Source: Narthecium ossifragum | Lineage: Eukaryota; Streptophyta; Magnoliopsida; Dioscoreales; Nartheciaceae | Direction of reading: 5' to 3' | Assembly (NCBI GenBank): GCA_963920575.1 | Contig: OY986969.1 | Location: 11,920,615-11,984,614, forward strand | Length of the DNA stretch: 64,000 bases | Part shown: positions 1 to 61,269 of the stretch, in pieces | Position numbering within the stretch: the stretch's first letter is position 1 | Layout: the number at the start of each line of letters is the position of its first letter | The notes under the pieces: model-generated | Seen by the model: the letters and a program-made list of their open reading frames with translations, nothing else | What the model was told of the DNA's origin: nothing | Database searches by the model: none | Program-made: the position numbers and the translations under genes

Positions 1-726
1 CTGGGAAGAAAAGATCGATCTTCTTTCCATAAAGATCGATCTTTGTTAACCGACTTTGCATAATTAAGGGCTCAGATTTAATTCGAGGATGGGAAACTTA
101 TGGGCTATAAATAGGGTTCTTTTAGGGATTAAGGGGGGCGAATTCTAGAGGTTTTTGGCTGCTCTTTTCTATTTATTTGATATTTCTAGGGTTCTTCTTT
201 CTTCTTTAAAGGATTGGATTGTTCTTGATGGCCTTGCGTGGCTAAACCTTAATTCTTGGTCGAGGATACTGAAACCTCGGAATCAATGAAACTGTGAGAT
301 CTAATCTATTTTTATTGTTTAGTTTATACTTGAGTATTGAATGTTCGTCTGAGATTAAATATTCTTGATTGTCTTGTCTAATTGCTAGGAGGCCTACTAG
401 TTTATTATTCATTGCGATCTACTGCTAAGTTGGAGATCAAATCCGTAATTGTTTGATCCCTCTAATCTGTGAGGCAACTAGGGTTTAATGATCTACTGCG
501 TTTCAGAGATTGTTAGATCTTAGGAAGAACATTCGACTAAATTAAATGCAACCGTTTGTGCTTGTGTTGTTTAGCTTCATCTATCTCCCTATTCTTAAGG
601 CTGCTACTAGATTTAAATCTACAGCGCTTGTCTTAGGTTGTTTAATAGTTAGGGTTGATTAGATCGCTTGTTTCTAATTAACTATGATTGAGGAGAGATT
701 CGAATTTCATTCGAACGGTGAATATT
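1..726 (+). repeat. 5' LTR of element A, missing both ends here
   Basis: Nearly identical to 5804-6540 of the 3' LTR. The match stops after GGTGAATATT. The last 279 bases of the LTR and the primer binding site are absent, so a deletion has fused LTR to leader. It carries two GATCGATC palindromes (13 and 34) 21 bp apart, where the 3' LTR has three such units. Bases 727-832 are AT-rich leader without a recognisable primer binding site. Confidence 0.85.
106..113 (+). promoter_or_regulatory. TATA box of element A 5' LTR
   Basis: TATAAATA, about 65 bases downstream of the second GATCGATC palindrome. The same box is at 5920-5927 in the 3' LTR. Confidence 0.7.
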
Positions 727-832
727 GTGATCTAATTGATTTTTGTGCTTATTGTGATCTTTATTTTCATAAAAAAAGAGTTTACACAAATTTTCTTAAT
801 TTGTTTTTCTCAGTTTACCAGAATCTTCTTGA

Positions 833-2823
833 TTGTTTATGAGTATAGCTCGATCTTTTAATCAAGGTGATTTACAGTACGATCCAGAGATAGAAAGAAC
901 TTTGCGCAGATTAAGGAAGGAAGCTCGGAGAAACTCCGAGGAGAACGATTCGGATCTTGATTTTCCATTTGCTAGTGATTCGGTATTAGAAGAGGAGGAA
1001 CTCATGGGTGGAAATCAGACTTTGAAAGAACTTGCATCCCCAGATTTGAATCAACAACCCTTGTGCATTACATTCCCTATTTTGGATGTTGCTACTACTT
1101 TTGAATTGAAATATGGATTAATACATCTCTTACCCACTTTTCATGGACTTTCAGGTGAAGATCCTCACAAGCATTTAAAAGAGCTTCATGTTGTGTGCAC
1201 AAGTATGAAACCCATGGGGGTGACTGAAGATCAAATCAAATTGAGAGCCTTCCCGTTTTCTTTGAAGGATTCGGTTAAGGATTGGCTTTATTATTTACCA
1301 TCTGGGAGTATTACCACATGGAACGAGATGAAGAGGTTGTTTTTGGAGAAATATTTTTCAGCTTCAAGGGCGGCCAACATTCGAAAAGAGATATGTGGTG
1401 TAAGGCAATATAACGGGGAGCTCTACACGAGTATTGGGAATGTTTCAAGAAATTATGTGCAAACTGTCCCCATCATCAAATTAGTGAGCAATTATTTATC
1501 CAATATTTTTATGAGGGCTTACTAACCACTGACAGGAGTATGATTGATGCCGCTAGTGGAGGAGCTTTGGTGGATAAAATGCCTGAAGCCGCAAGGAACT
1601 TGATTGCAAATATGGCGGCTAATTCTCAACAATTTAACACTAGACTTGATTCTTATTCAAAACATGGTAATGAGGTAAATGTTTCATCTCTTGAACAACA
1701 AATTGCGAGTCTAACTTCTCTTGTTCGTCAATTGGCTGTAGGTAATATGCAAACAGCGAAGGTTTGTGGGATTTGTTCGATGGCAGGACATCCAACCGAC
1801 ATGTGCCCAACTCTTCAAGAGGAGCCCAGTGAACAAGTGAATGCAACGGGTAGTTTCCCTGGACTACCGCAAAGGAAGTATGATTCATATTCAAACACGT
1901 ATAATCCGGGATGGAGGGATCACCCCAATCTCAACTATGGAAATCCGCAAGAGACGAATGCCAGTATTCAAGGTTTGGAACATCAGGTGGGCCAGATGGC
2001 GACTGCAATTAGCAAGCTAGAGGCACAAAGTTTGGAAAAATTACCCTCTCGAACGGTAATAAATCCAAGAGAAAATGCAAGTGCGATCATTTTGAGAAGT
2101 GGTAAAGAAGTTGAGATTCCAGCAAAGGAAGCCACTGCATCGTCACCACAAGGAAAAGAGCAAAACATTGTTGCGAACAAAGACTTTCGCGACGACGACG
2201 ACGTATCTAAACATAAGTTTCCACCTCTTTCTGATTATAAACCAGTGCCTCCTTTTCCTCAGGCTTTAGTTGAATCTAGAAGATATGAGAAGAATTCAGA
2301 TCTTTATGAGACTTTTCGCCGATGCGAGGTAATTATTCCACTCTTAGATGCTATTAAACAAGTACCTCGTTATGCTAAATTCTTGAAAGAATTGTGCACA
2401 ATTAAGAGGAAGCAGAAAATTAAAGGATGTGAGAAGGTGAGAGTTGGTGAAAATGTTTCTGCAATTCTTCAAAGAAAAATTCCTGTAAAGTGTAAAGATC
2501 CAGGTATGTTTACTATCCCATGTACAATTAGTAACACCAAATTTGAGAAGACCATGTTAGATTTAGGAGCTTCTATCAATGTCATGCCATATTCTATATA
2601 TTCTTCTTTAAAACTTGGGCTTTTGAACGAAACTGGTGTTGTGATTCAATTGGCTGACAGATCTAATGCCTATCCTAAAGGTGTAGTTGAAGATATTCTT
2701 GTGCACGTCAATGATTTAGTTTTCCCTGCTAATTTTTATGTGCTTGATATGAAGAATGATGATCATACTACTCCTATTTTGTTGGGAAGACCATTCTGAA
2801 AGACATCCAATACTAAGATAGAT
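833..2823 (+). pseudogene. gag-protease of element A, frameshifted and with a premature stop
   Basis: Encodes the structural Gag and aspartic protease of an Athila-type element. The capsid region (about 1130-1420) shows the family's FHGLSGEDP and WLYYLPSGS stretches. It then changes frame near 1425 and resumes in the frame from 1540 (LVDKMPEAARNLIAN). A zinc knuckle CX2CX4HX4C (CGICSMAGHPTDMC) lies near 1770-1815. The protease near 2560-2800 has the active-site motif LDLGASIN and ends at ILLGRPF. A TGA at 2797-2799 cuts the frame where relatives read through, and recognisable sequence continues beyond it. The family is certain; the product is not functional as it stands. Confidence 0.85.
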
Positions 2824-59012: not shown

Positions 59013-59065
59013 TTGTAACGCCCTGGCCCTCCACTGGGCCCCGGCCCGTGGGCTCCCGGTCCGAC
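59013..59065 (-). repeat. Short LTR-end module shared with Cassandra
   Basis: On the minus strand GGGAGCCCACGGGCC, then CCAGTGGAGGGCC and GGGCGTTACA, very like the last 50 bases of the Cassandra LTRs (ending 52374 and 52813). The sequence beyond it is not Cassandra. It may be an LTR 3' end of another family or a Cassandra remnant. Confidence 0.5.
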
Positions 59066-59865
59066 ACCGGCATGAATGCACATCTCCCCCTGAAACGTCA
59101 TTACACAGCCGAAAAACAACAAAACAAGCAACAATCATTAAAGCGAAAACATATCACATGATCGCAAACAACCATGCAATGATGTTCTAGACCTAGAACT
59201 ATCCCATTCCACACTGAAAACCTTAACCGCAAGCCTAATCCTATCCATGGGACCTACAGCCTGCTCTGATACCAAACTGTCACGCCCTGACCCAGAAAAC
59301 CCATTTAGATCGAGACGGGAGCCACCTAAACCTATTTACATCATCAATAGGCGCGCAAATATGTAACTACTACGAAGTTAAACAATTTAATCATCAAGCT
59401 CATAAAAATTTTGGCAAAATCCCCTTTATAAGTATAACACAAGAAACCTGTACATTTGATAATTTTACAACTTTACAACTTCGAATCTGACAAATTACAA
59501 TTAGTACAAATGATTAATCATTACATTCCTTAAATGTCTATATTAAAGAATGTTACAACATTTCTCCTATACAATTGAATTAATAATCATACAATTCTGT
59601 ATCTCAGATATTTCAGATTATACATCAATTTATACATCATTGATTAAAACTGTAAATTAACTGGAGAAGAACTCTTCGAAGTTCTAAGTCCTCGATCACC
59701 TCGAAATATCGCGCCATCTTCTAGGAGAACACCTGAAAGAAGAAACTGCATCGACCTGCATCGCCGATGCAGCCCAGGTAGGGTGAGCAACAATGCCCAG
59801 TAGGATTCTACTCTACGTCGCACACAAAGGAAGAGAAACTGCAACTGTGTCGTTCTCCGCCTAAG
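59066..59865 (-). mobile_element. Leader, primer binding site and LTR part of a third Tekay-like element
   Basis: Minus strand: LTR 59865-59278 (right part cut by the next element), ending GGGTCAGGGCGTGACA; primer binding site TGGTATCAGAGC at 59274-59263; and a leader resembling 55250-55340. Inside the LTR, GTCGTAGTG-like and CTCACCCTACCTGGGCTGC sequences match the other Tekay-like LTRs. Confidence 0.78.
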
Positions 59866-61269
59866 TGATGAGTGCATGAAAGTGCACTCTGAACTACCTT
59901 ATAACCATCTCAATTGCTAGATTATTATTCTTAATCAGCATCTTTATTACTATTTTTATATCTATATGTTGCTTCACATGGTTGTTTGGAAAATGCAGGA
60001 AATTGGAGCTAAAAGAAGCTGAAAAGAGTATATGGATCAACTTCAAAAATTAATCTGTACCTGCTCATGAAGAACCAGATGATGTGCCATATATGGTTAG
60101 AAAGCTCTTGAAGTCTAGATTCTGGAAAATTTTACGGTTCGTGATTCCGAGTTTCCTAGAGGAAGTTACGGCAATTTTAGTACCGATGGCGCAGTCTGAA
60201 TGGCAGCACAGTAAATAAGCTGGAAGTCCGAGCGATCCTTCGATCGATCGGACTACGCAGAAACGTGACAGAACCTATTTTTTTTGGCTGAACGAAGTTC
60301 GATCGATCGGGCTCGGGCGAAGCCAGGAATTGATGTTTTTAATGAGACGGATCGATCCAACCCCTAAAGTCCGATCGATCCTACGTTTCCAGTGAATTAA
60401 ATCAACGGTTTTGATTTAACCCGAGTTTAGGCATATAAATAGGATACTTAGGGTTATCAAAAGGAGACTTTTGGGAGGACTTTTTGGCAGCGTTTGGAGG
60501 CGAGGAGAAGGGTTCCAGGCTTGGTTTTCTTTTCTTATTTCTTCTTTATTTCTTCATTAGTTTTGTTGCCCTCATGGTGAATATGAGTGGCTAGTTTCTT
60601 TTCTAAGGTACCGATGTAGCCCTAACTGAATCATTCTATGTTATTGGATCATGATTATTTTATCAGTTTATTTTCCTTGTTTCATTCATTATTATAACTG
60701 AGATCTTAAATACCTTTATCTGGCCAATAAAAGTATTATAGATTGTTTTATGTGAGATTGGGCGAGGGTTCATTCCCTAATCTTGCAGGATCTATGAATG
60801 AATGAGTTTATGTCGAGGCCGGGTTCAAGCTAAGAGTATTCTTGGTTCATAATTGTTCTTCAGAGCTTAATGGATTCTTGATTAACACTTAGTTATGGGT
60901 TCATTAGCTAGGGTTAATTGAGGGTACTTGGTGAAGACCGCGGCCGAACGGATCATCATACCGGAAGAACGAGCCCTTGGAATTAAACTGAGATCTTGAT
61001 TGATTCAATGCATAGAATGAGGATGTTATGGTGAAATCGAAACCTTAGTATCAATCCATCATATTTCTATCGTTTTCTTATTTCGTTATTAGGTCATCTA
61101 TTTTCGAGACTTCATATTTCTTCTTTTCTCTTCCATATTTTCTTTCTTTTCTGTTCTTTAGCATTTTACTCTATTAATCTCTACAAATCTCTATGGGTAC
61201 GATACTCGTCTTGCTACTATACTGATTGCACCGATTCGTATACTTGCGAGATATAAAATTTATTCATCA
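59866..61269 (+). repeat. 5' LTR of Athila element E
   Basis: 1404 bp, TGATGAGTGCATG to TTATTCATCA. TATAAATA is at 60434-60441. GATCGATC sites lie at 60242, 60301, 60350 and 60373; the last pair is 23 bp apart and ends 53 bases before the TATA box. Confidence 0.9.
60434..60441 (+). promoter_or_regulatory. TATA box of element E
   Basis: TATAAATA in the same arrangement as in the other Athila-type LTRs. Confidence 0.7.

Follow-up and report, generated by a model that had tools for sequence, protein, structure and literature searches.

Paired TCGA-centred palindromes form dyad arrays in gypsy and copia LTRs of Narthecium ossifragum

Introduction

Why should one short palindrome, GATCGATC, return in pairs of nearly constant spacing in the LTRs of different retrotransposon lineages, and what might read it? 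To our knowledge, plant LTR promoters have mostly been treated one lineage at a time, with motifs particular to each. The window analysed here is a stretch of 64,000 nt from Narthecium ossifragum (contig OY986969.1, positions 11,920,615 to 11,984,614 of the forward strand). A sequence-only reading of it had proposed that the pairs are sites of a dimeric protein on one face of the helix, obtained by convergence or exchange between LTRs that were otherwise unalignable.

Results

The window contains 66 exact GATCGATC sites, whereas in 100 dinucleotide shuffles the average was 1.19 and the highest count 5. The pairing that had been claimed, at 19-23 and mostly 21-23 bp, is real in the window, as the exact spacings of up to 25 bp are 19 (n=1), 21 (n=2), 22 (n=7) and 23 bp (n=9). 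All 31 coordinates given for it were correct, 29 as exact sites and two as one-base-off sites (5827, GATCGATA; 51946, AATCGATC), which the claim had allowed for. At a distance of 19-24 bp, 38 of the 66 sites have an exact partner; for 15 the partner is one base off and for 2 it is two bases off, while 11 stand alone. Two of these partnerless sites (51989 and 52824) lie 23 bp apart once the intervening TRIM-like insertion is discounted. One-base-off partners number 30 at 21-23 bp versus 12 at 27-29 bp. The pairs themselves come back at about 72 bp, a recurrence that the earlier description did not contain, and tandem repeats are found at 52817-52984, where the unit is 72 bp long, and at 5803-5856, where it is 21 bp long.

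Besides these sites, which we call type 1, the window holds a sister dyad (type 2) of the form GGTCGA-N8-TCGACC, the half-sites of which are 12 bp apart, one helical turn below the 22-23 bp class. Spacings between RTCGAY pairs in the window are exactly 12 bp in 13 cases, 22 bp in 11 and 23 bp in 11, with none at 13-17 bp. Type 2 dyads frequently read CGGTCGA...TCGACCG, and this CGG-CCG extension is absent from the type 1 core. The arrays (Table 1) lie in gypsy LTRs that adjoin gypsy gag, RT and integrase, and in a copia element that carries a type 2 array together with the primer-binding site TGGTATCAGAG and a copia-type gag.

Table 1. Dyads, arrays and an associated insertion in the window (positions counted from its first letter)
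Position	Strand	Feature	Details
13..41	+	type 1 dyad, Athila-type LTR	pair 13/34; TATAAATA at 106
5579..5855	+	mixed array, Athila-type LTR	type 1 at 5579, 5742/5764, 5806/5827/5848; TATAAATA at 5920
5640, 5691	+	two type 2 dyads	between type 1 sites of the 5579..5855 array
10440..10900	+	type 2 and GATGCATC (21-bp spacing) array, copia-like LTR	TATATAT at 10971
11410..11507	+	type 1 array, two dyads, Tekay-like (chromovirus) 5' LTR	about 212 bp into LTR
15117..15136	+	lone type 2 dyad in coding part of Tekay-like element	possibly chance
18272..18369	+	3' LTR counterpart of 11410 array	one of four sites one base off (18294)
29146..29361	-	type 1 array	dyads 29146/29169, 29218/29241, 29331/29354; single 29272; TATAAATA minus strand 29074
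33567..33900	.	type 2 array, Tekay-like LTR	homologous to copia array, reverse orientation
35020..35370	+	type 2 array, copia 5' LTR (about 34910-35937)	primer-binding site 35940; TATAAAA 35445
37158..37186	+	type 1 dyad, second Tekay-like LTR family	place homologous to 11410
37749..37975	+	type 1 array, four dyads (37749, 37807, 37875, 37946)	downstream of 37158 dyad
41499..41580	+	type 2 array remnant, copia 3' LTR	greater part of array missing
47854..48416	+	type 1 array, 12 exact sites	downstream of gypsy integrase; period about 72 in first part
51924..53108	-	type 1 array, Athila-type LTR	split by TRIM-like insertion; TATAAATA minus strand 51853
52009..52813	.	TRIM-like insertion inside dyad	7-bp target duplication 52002-52008, 52814-52820
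53751..54122	+	type 1 array, six dyads, Athila-type LTR	TATAAATA at 54188
60230..60380	+	type 1 array, Athila-type LTR	TATAAATA 60434; primer-binding site 61276; gag from 61319

The spacing rule holds far beyond the window. In 379 Mb, with the reversed pattern as control, the count by spacing that had been proposed as a check gave 76,202 GATCGATC pairs at 19-23 bp against 13 for the control, while 10-18 bp yielded 1,261 (control 55) and 24-38 bp 7,408 (control 72); per single distance this amounts to about 15,240, 140 and 494 pairs, respectively, and since many arrays are related copies, the counts do not represent independent events. The pattern GGTCGA-N4..14-TCGACC occurs 30,784 times genome-wide versus 735 for its control, with a gap of exactly 8 in all but one of the 60 distinct places listed. 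Of 50 places listed with GATCGATC pairs at 10-18 bp, 22 have a spacing of 12 bp and 15 one of 18 bp, and the frequent 18-bp pairs count against a helical rule, which does not predict them. An independent 200-kb sample was also drawn from contigs 1-8, as 20 segments of 10 kb with round coordinates. No other 8-bp palindrome is as common there as GATCGATC, which occurs 131 times, compared with 59 for the second in rank and an average of 4.2 over all 256 palindromes. Its spacings peak at 22 (15), 23 (24), 49 (10) and 72 bp (18), and nine of the 20 segments are without any GATCGATC site. RTCGAY pairs in this sample are 12 bp apart in 17 cases, 22 bp in 21 and 23 bp in 26, with 4 at 13-17 bp.

With respect to the promoter, 12 of 28 arrays have a TATA box 15-160 bp past one of their ends, compared with 3.3 (sd 1.7) for random placement; at this distance the other 16, including all four Tekay-like arrays of the window, have none. 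The arrays upstream of TATA comprise Athila-type and copia ones and the array at 47.8 kb, in which 11 of the 12 sites precede TATAAAG at 48370 and one (48409) follows it. The claimed distance of about 45-75 bp between TATAAATA and the nearest site in Athila-type LTRs is borne out in five of six LTR copies (53-64 bp to an exact GATCGATC); in the sixth, with TATAAATA at 54188, the exact site is at 86 bp and a one-base-off partner is closer. Each GATCGATC site has a central CpG, and the observed/expected ratio of CpG is 0.95-1.69 in eight window arrays versus 0.77 in the whole window.

The GATCGATC unit looks like a dyad, i.e. an inverted repeat, more than a mere pair, with flanks that are complementary and co-vary. 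The sequence-only reading described neither this dyad structure nor the 12-bp sister class. When hairpin energies of true pairs were compared with those of partners swapped within the same array or locus, the true pairs stood out both in the window (z -3.1, p 0.0008, 28 pairs) and in the 200-kb sample (z -3.3, p 0.0008, 38 pairs), and of the 19 short hairpins that rank strongest in the window, 16 include GATCGATC, while five shuffles yielded none that strong. At outer flank position 1 all four Watson-Crick types are present in both data sets. Within arrays the signal is due to the outer flanks together with the energy of the whole hairpin, whereas inner-flank complementarity alone is not pair-specific within arrays (p 0.064 in the window, 0.11 in the 200-kb sample). 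When a single flanking base is considered, mirror partners (10 of 39 informative pairs) are about as frequent as direct ones (8), and direct flank similarity is also high in the 200-kb sample when compared with global swaps (z 4.0 and 5.5; within loci 0.3 and 1.7). Among the places listed genome-wide at 19-23 bp, spacers are clearly complementary, with z 11.1 for 86 distinct places and 9.2 once near-copies are merged to 50. The signal is less clear at 24-38 bp, where z is 3.3 with near-copies merged (33 places) and 1.9 when all 46 distinct places are used.

Regarding descent, the description as otherwise unalignable has to be dropped. The two families of Tekay-like LTRs align around their first pair, and the Athila-type LTRs can be aligned with each other at the TATA-proximal pair as well as to the left and right of the array. 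It follows that the GATCGATC motif was inherited among the Athila-type LTRs, where convergence had been considered. The homologous first pair of the two Tekay-like families (at 11410 and at 37158) has the same two cores in each, while the adjacent flank bases change together, from G/C to A/T in the 37158 dyad. Within one Tekay-like element, the LTRs of which (18060-20423, 3'; 11198-13571, 5') are 96% identical, substitutions inside dyads look uncompensated by eye. As to the proposed exchange between unrelated elements, it is traceable for the sister (GGTCGACC-type) array, since copia and gypsy LTRs share more than the motif there, in opposite orientation. It is not traceable for GATCGATC arrays between Tekay-like and Athila-type LTRs, where alignments in the right and the wrong orientation score similarly (mean difference 3.7, largest 10, in 23 between-lineage comparisons that included the 47.8-kb array).

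Discussion

We give even chances to the explanation that the arrays are U3, promoter-upstream, enhancer-like sets of dyad sites for a putative host DNA-binding protein. The functional unit would be a dyad of two TCGA-centred palindromic half-sites, placed about one turn (12 bp, GGTCGA-N8-TCGACC) or about two turns (22-23 bp, GATCGATC...GATCGATC) apart, with dyads recurring at roughly 50-72 bp. A host protein may bind each dyad as a dimer or a dimer of dimers and thereby activate transcription or counter silencing; core and spacing would then be under selection, and tandem duplication together with palindrome-mediated strand switching could renew the flanks while preserving mirror symmetry. The two spacing classes differ by about one helical turn, which fits binding of a dimeric protein at the DNA level. 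Of the original proposal, the spaced self-complementary site stands genome-wide, with part of the arrays just upstream of TATA, but "same face" is only approximate because 22-23 bp correspond to 2.1-2.2 turns. Recognition by a dimeric protein likewise agrees with the helical spacing and with the lack of an RNA-type bias described below, with the modification that the unit looks like a dyad. A point against this explanation is that complementary but arbitrary flank letters would not be selected by a sequence-specific protein alone.

These flank letters are an argument for secondary structure as the functional unit, either as a DNA cruciform before the promoter or as an RNA hairpin formed by the part of the transcript that comes from the 3' LTR, and the spacers listed genome-wide at 19-23 bp are complementary as well. 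We nevertheless consider this unlikely, as neither structure needs GATCGATC as core or a spacing of 12 or 22-23 bp, and for the RNA hairpin a preference for the sense strand is absent: among 280 flank pairs G.U mismatches (24) are about as frequent as A.C mismatches (29), and the sense strand folds lower in 15 of 28 cases, with means of -19.81 (sense) and -19.90 (antisense). It is similarly improbable, in our view, that the arrays are a neutral by-product. In that case palindromes would favour tandem duplication and strand switching while the element is replicated or reverse-transcribed, and the arrays would grow and perfect themselves without function, hitch-hiking on successful LTRs. The 72-bp recurrence, the two tandem repeats, the absence of most of the array from the copia 3' LTR and the seemingly uncompensated dyad substitutions would all suit such a process, but it leaves unexplained that the same core and spacings occur in LTRs with nothing else alignable and that at homologous places the cores are nearly constant while the flanks change.

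Other readings name a different binder or none. Plant GATA transcription factors recognise GATC, in preference to GATA, and reporter expression rises with each added GATC in the available parts of PMC11525189 and PMC6508505; GATCGATC can be regarded as two packed GATC, and 36 of the 66 sites hold one or more of the six 6-mers that were strongest in the published GATC study. We assign this reading little probability too, because only 20 of the 66 sites fit the GATA-factor motif YVGATCBR in either half, several arrays precede a TATA box whereas the published effect, as far as that text goes, is minimal upstream of the TSS, and neither the dyads, the fixed spacing nor the GGTCGACC class are accounted for. 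That the arrays are VANC-type anti-silencing targets seems very unlikely. The anatomy is the same, with dense, fast-renewed short motifs in non-coding regions (PMC5735166, available part), and the central CpG of each site would fit, but VANC motifs are described there as family-specific and of one orientation, whereas the core found here is symmetric and GATCGATC dyads occur in both Athila-type and Tekay-like LTRs. No VANC-named Pfam match was found for the 23 distinct frames among 35 window frames of at least 150 aa, and Pfam may hold no VANC model. An assembly artefact can practically be dismissed: the proximity-ligation junction of GATC-cut libraries is identical to GATCGATC (PMC5288721, available part), but junctions would not pair at 22-23 bp, turn up at corresponding positions in homologous LTRs, produce the excess of one-base-off partners or explain the GGTCGACC class.

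Returning to the dyad sites for a putative host protein, a wider version appears possible, though we hold it with clearly less confidence. A single host or element-borne protein would read the one- and two-turn TCGA-centred dyads and drive copia and gypsy elements alike, and the arrays would be exchangeable, orientation-independent enhancer cassettes that cross superfamilies and retain their mirror symmetry through palindrome-mediated strand switching, forming a genome-wide cis-regulatory network of about 100,000 dyads (76,202 plus 30,784) in a 379-Mb genome. The same paired palindromic site and spacing marks different gypsy lineages, and the sister site crosses copia and gypsy by sequence transfer; if a host protein reads the arrays, tens of thousands of copies would be under one regulator. 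Co-option of host transcription by retrotransposons and their escape from silencing would then become directly testable, and genes near such LTRs that are wired to the same factor could be identified. For the search for this protein, the dyad rule (12 or 22-23 bp) provides a precise probe.

Relation to known systems

VANDAL elements are DNA transposons, and Del is the lineage referred to here as Tekay. According to the available part of PMC5735166, the VANC-bound motifs of VANDAL elements are similarly short, build up in non-coding regions as tandem repeats form and diverge jointly, but they are element-specific and oriented, and their element-encoded binding protein is known. The GATC motif of GATA factors shares the GATC core and an effect that rises with copy number, but acts downstream of the TSS, and the available text of PMC11525189 describes no dyad or spacing rule for it. 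The Tekay-like arrays of the window sit where Del LTRs have, in their 5' part, a poorly conserved, length-variable and CpG-rich stretch (PMC4029996, available part); that text differs in describing no palindromes or dyads, the stem "palindrom" occurring 0 times in its main text.

The closest known case, judged from the available part of PMC2829016, is the palindromic repeated motif (RM) upstream of the Sirevirus TATA box. In these copia elements RM boxes are high-copy palindromes with dyad symmetry, which for the most part occupy the upper half of the LTR, upstream of TATA, and form CpG islands. They bear a CGG-CCG signature; of the dyads described here, those of type 2 often show these letters and the type 1 core does not. 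The arrays described here are likewise high-copy palindromes with dyad symmetry within the LTR, and 12 of the 28 share the position before the TATA box. The core of the grape RM consensus CGGTCGACCG equals the type 2 half-site core, and the Tnd-1 RM is centred on ATCGAT (same source and part). In that comparison, which was made among copia elements, RMs are Sirevirus-specific and absent from classic elements, and the RM table gives single palindromes. Further marks of a Sirevirus are multiple PPTs and a conserved integrase signal. In N. ossifragum, by contrast, the sites are paired at fixed spacings one helical turn apart, and one core is common to Athila-type and Tekay-like gypsy elements and another to copia and gypsy.

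Pairing and spacing of the palindrome

The 8-bp palindrome GATCGATC occurs 66 times in the window, as compared with a mean of 1.19 and a maximum of 5 copies in 100 dinucleotide shuffles. The distances between its copies have their maxima at 22 and 23 bp, followed by 49 and 71-72 bp, which indicates that the sites pair up and that the pairs repeat about every 72 bp; this recurrence is clearest at 47854-48099. Of the 66 exact sites, 55 are accompanied at 19-24 bp by a second site with no more than two mismatches, and two further exact sites constitute one pair that is split by an inserted element. 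The sequence-only reading had described such pairs with starts 19-23 bp apart, and its site coordinates proved correct, two of them being one-base-off sites, a latitude it had allowed.

That reading had also suggested counting the spacing over the whole genome, and the count bears it out: the 379-Mb assembly containing the window holds at least 76,202 pairs at 19-23 bp, against 13 for the control, in which the pattern is read backwards. At least 1,261 pairs (control 55) lie at 10-18 bp and at least 7,408 (control 72) at 24-38 bp, so that each distance is represented by about 15,240, 140 and 494 pairs, respectively; these numbers are lower bounds, many of the places are related copies, and LTR and non-LTR sequence is counted together. 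In a sample of 20 stretches of 10 kb (200 kb), taken at round coordinates on contigs 1-8 of the same assembly, GATCGATC is the most frequent 8-bp palindrome, with 131 copies and a runner-up at 59. It is absent from nine of the 20 stretches and reaches up to 25 copies in others, and the sites are thus concentrated in part of the genome.

A sister class is apparent when the shorter core RTCGAY is considered. In the window, 13 RTCGAY pairs lie at exactly 12 bp, 22 at 22-23 bp and none at 13-17 bp, and the sample gave 17, 47 and 4 pairs. The 12-bp class is GGTCGA-N8-TCGACC, mostly in the form GGTCGAT-N6-ATCGACC, and is referred to here as the type 2 dyad, the GATCGATC pair at 22-23 bp being type 1. 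All eight type 2 dyads of the window have a gap of 8 although 4-14 was allowed, two of the eight being copies from the paired LTRs of a single element. With gaps of 2-30 allowed, 14 of 16 in the sample have this gap, and the other two have a gap of 20, which is 12 more. Genome-wide, at least 30,784 such dyads with gaps of 4-14 were counted against 735 in the control, and all but one of the 60 distinct places listed had a gap of exactly 8. GATCGATC itself can be paired at 12 bp, as in 22 of the 50 places listed for the 10-18 bp range, where ten different spacers are represented. Going from 12 to 22-23 bp adds one turn of B-DNA, and we infer a rule of the kind that is imposed by protein binding. 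In a copia-like LTR (window 10467-10674), the palindrome GATGCATC, a third core, recurs at the nearly identical spacing of 21 bp. Pairs of GATCGATC at 18 bp were also observed (15 of the same 50 listed places, 12 distinct spacers), and this spacing is outside the one-turn/two-turn rule.

Dyad symmetry of the flanks

The flanks of paired sites, read outward from the cores, tend to be complementary, with letters that vary from pair to pair; at the first outer position all four Watson-Crick pairs are present in both the window and the sample. A hairpin scan at a score of at least 11 yielded 19 hairpins in the window and had no hit in any of 5 shuffles. GATCGATC is contained in 16 of these, and the other three are GGATGCATCC repeats.

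The pair-specificity of this complementarity was assessed by exchanging right halves among pairs, either within arrays or loci or globally. The 34 window pairs were reduced to 28 by removal of the near-copies 5806, 5827, 18272, 18340 and 52873 and the isolated pair 36371, and within-array swaps pooled 13 with 5742, 37158 with 37749-37946, and 60350 with the 29-kb array. The sample set consisted of exact pairs alone and comprised 38 pairs after near-copies were merged. The fold energy of the true window pairs was -22.6, compared with -20.7 for within-array swaps (z -3.1, p 0.0008) and -17.9 for global swaps (z -6.5). Very similar values were obtained in the sample, with -23.4 for true pairs, -21.3 for within-locus swaps (z -3.3, p 0.0008) and -18.8 for global swaps (z -6.7). 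The outer flanks were complementary above within-array or within-locus swaps (window z 1.9, p 0.037; sample z 2.7, p 0.003), and the inner flanks alone did not reach significance in the same comparison (window p 0.064, sample p 0.11). Against global swaps, the spacers of genome-wide pairs 19-23 bp apart (86 distinct among 100 listed rows) showed an inner-five complementarity of 0.577 versus 0.309 (z 11.1), and z remained 9.2 after near-copies were merged (n=50). For the spacers of pairs 24-38 bp apart (50 listed places), z was 3.3 for 33 merged and 1.9 for 46 distinct spacers. At G000:C1:8276171-8276210 (contig 1 of the same assembly), a GATCGATC pair at 32 bp has a 24-bp spacer that is a 9-bp perfect inverted repeat with a 6-bp loop; mirror symmetry is retained at this unusual spacing.

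Position of the arrays in LTRs

Six Athila-type LTR copies have a pair shortly upstream of the TATA-type sequence TATAAATA, the nearest exact GATCGATC being 53-64 bp away in five of them and 86 bp in the sixth. The TATA-proximal stretch is alignable in all six, with near-invariant cores, altered inner sequence and a spacing of 21-23 bp. Both copia-like arrays precede a TATA-like box, and in the array at 47854..48416, which lies in a putative LTR, 11 of 12 sites are found before TATAAAG and one after. Taking window and sample together, 12 of 28 arrays have a TATA box 15-160 bp past one end, compared with 3.3 (sd 1.7) for random placement, an excess that is inflated by related array copies; four arrays have the box at 53 bp, four at 64 bp, and one each at 63, 75, 78 and 86 bp. 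In the other 16 arrays, no TATA box was found 15-160 bp past either end. In two diverged families of Tekay-like LTRs, the first pair is found about 212 bp from the start of the LTR. Comparing 11410 with 37158, the eight core bases are equal at both sites and the adjacent flank bases have jointly changed from G/C to A/T; a third copy (18272) has one core base altered. The CpG observed/expected ratio is 0.95-1.69 in eight window arrays versus 0.77 in the whole window.

The lineage names Athila and Tekay are those of the sequence-only reading. Pfam places an integrase with a Tf2-1-type SH3 domain and a weak chromodomain below the cut-off in the Tekay-like elements, and a copia gag underlies the copia label. 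For the Athila gag, the best-scoring listed protein is from Prunus (59%), and the most similar listed one reaches 81% over 60% of the query.

Neighboring elements

The TRIM-like element of the window sits inside a GATCGATC dyad, and joining its two flanks restores a 23-bp pair. Its first repeat is followed by TGGTATCAGAG, and its repeats contain a stretch that presumably resembles the 3' part of 5S rRNA (Cassandra-like); Rfam at its gathering threshold did not report 5S rRNA in this element. The Tekay-like element is inserted in a copia-like LTR, whose halves lie at 10.7-11.2 and 20.4-20.6 kb. The frame with the weak plant mobile domain (PMD) may be a captured PMD gene, and the proteins listed as nearest to the GRAS fragment are SCL23-like proteins of monocots (grasses, banana and yam).

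Features neighboring the arrays (window positions)
Feature	Position	Strand	Remarks
Weak plant mobile domain frame	7726-8886		PF10536, 31.5 bits, below the cut-off of 34.9; downstream of Athila-type LTR
Tekay-like element	11199-20423		both LTRs; TGTAT on both sides
GRAS (SCL23-like) gene fragment	22373-23476	minus	between retrotransposons
Tandem duplication	43598-43915		161-bp unit, 98% matches
TRIM-like element	52009-52813		two ~375-bp direct repeats, 92% identical; 7-bp target duplication ATAGGTG

Descent and probable transfer of the arrays

The sequence-only reading left open whether unrelated elements had converged on one module or exchanged it. Among the Athila-type LTRs the arrays are inherited, as the sequence is alignable on both sides of the array. 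Sharing is traceable for type 2 arrays between copia and gypsy elements: in those of the copia LTRs, one Tekay-like LTR and one Athila-type LTR, the common sequence extends past the motif. The copia arrays align in opposite orientation with the Tekay-like array (72-82% over 55-110 bp, E 1e-11 to 5e-9) and with the Athila-type array (76-77% over 62-72 bp, E 6e-8 and 8e-7), and identity outside the cores amounts to 66/95, 85/121, 33/45 and 32/43 bases in the type 2 alignments. By this common sequence, array cassettes probably passed between superfamilies, their orientation to the promoter differing. Between the Tekay-like and Athila-type type 2 arrays, the two orientations scored nearly equally (29.0 and 28.5), and copia and Athila-type LTRs have one 43-bp match outside the arrays (E 3e-5). 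A transfer of type 1 arrays between Tekay-like and Athila-type LTRs could not be traced by alignment, and these arrays would go back either to convergence or to a transfer so ancient that its trace is lost.

Around window 41450-41520, the copia 3' LTR lacks about 325 bp of the 5' LTR, including the greater part of the type 2 array, and arrays may be prone to deletion. Viral contigs gave three pattern matches; judged solely by their composition and local sequence, none of them resembles a plant LTR. The two protein queries yielded no confirmed relatives there.

Origin of the pairs and candidate binders

We favor a host activator that binds the dyads cooperatively. A putative host DNA-binding protein would occupy each dyad in this manner and activate LTR transcription, and selection would act on core and spacing. 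Palindrome-mediated strand switching together with local duplication would best account for the mirror symmetry of otherwise arbitrary flank letters, and would also invert cassettes. Direct duplication as the only origin of the pairs was rejected: under within-array swaps in the window, direct flank similarity shows no pair-specificity (z -1.3 for either side), and under within-locus swaps in the sample it shows a weak one at most (z 0.3 and 1.7), whereas the outer inverted complementarity does show it. However, of 39 informative pairs, 10 have the mirror partner and 8 the direct partner at the single adjacent base, and direct flank similarity in the sample likewise stands well above global swaps (z 4.0 and 5.5), so that tandem duplication probably contributes; a 21-bp tandem unit is found at 5803-5856. 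An RNA hairpin or microRNA-like element should leave a strand signature, which is absent: G.U (24) and A.C (29) mismatches are about equally frequent among 280 flank pairs of LTR-sense stems, and sense and antisense folds have means of -19.81 and -19.90, the sense fold being lower in 15 of 28. Rfam at gathering threshold gave no match within the arrays. Its sole match in the window is snoR71 (RF00097, 47.6 bits, 61832-61937 minus), within an Athila-type gag frame of the opposite strand, and possibly reflects capture of a snoRNA by a retrotransposon or derivation of the family from retrotransposon sequence.

As to the identity of the favored dyad-binding protein, no named candidates whose core matches were found other than plant GATA factors, which prefer GATC (PMC6508505, PMC11525189). 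The published GATA motif, however, fits just 20 of the 66 GATCGATC sites, and PMC11525189 describes the GATC effect as minimal upstream of the start site. Anti-silencing of the VANC type is an attractive analogy, but it is element-specific.

Comparison with known systems

In the full-text literature searched for LTRs, palindromes, proteins and motifs, from which most subscription papers are excluded, no description of GATCGATC pairs in LTRs was found in the titles and passages covered. A variable 5' CpG island is known in Del LTRs (PMC4029996). The nearest known counterpart is the Sirevirus LTR palindromic repeated motif, described in PMC2829016 as dyad-symmetric, present in high copy upstream of the TATA box and forming CpG islands; one grape motif is given there as CGGTCGACCG, and in a comparison of copia elements the motif is termed Sirevirus-specific. 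As far as the searched literature shows, new are the pairing rule with its two helical spacings, the use of one core by distinct gypsy lineages, mirror flanks that co-vary, the extent of the phenomenon across the genome, and a cassette whose sharing between copia and gypsy elements can be traced.
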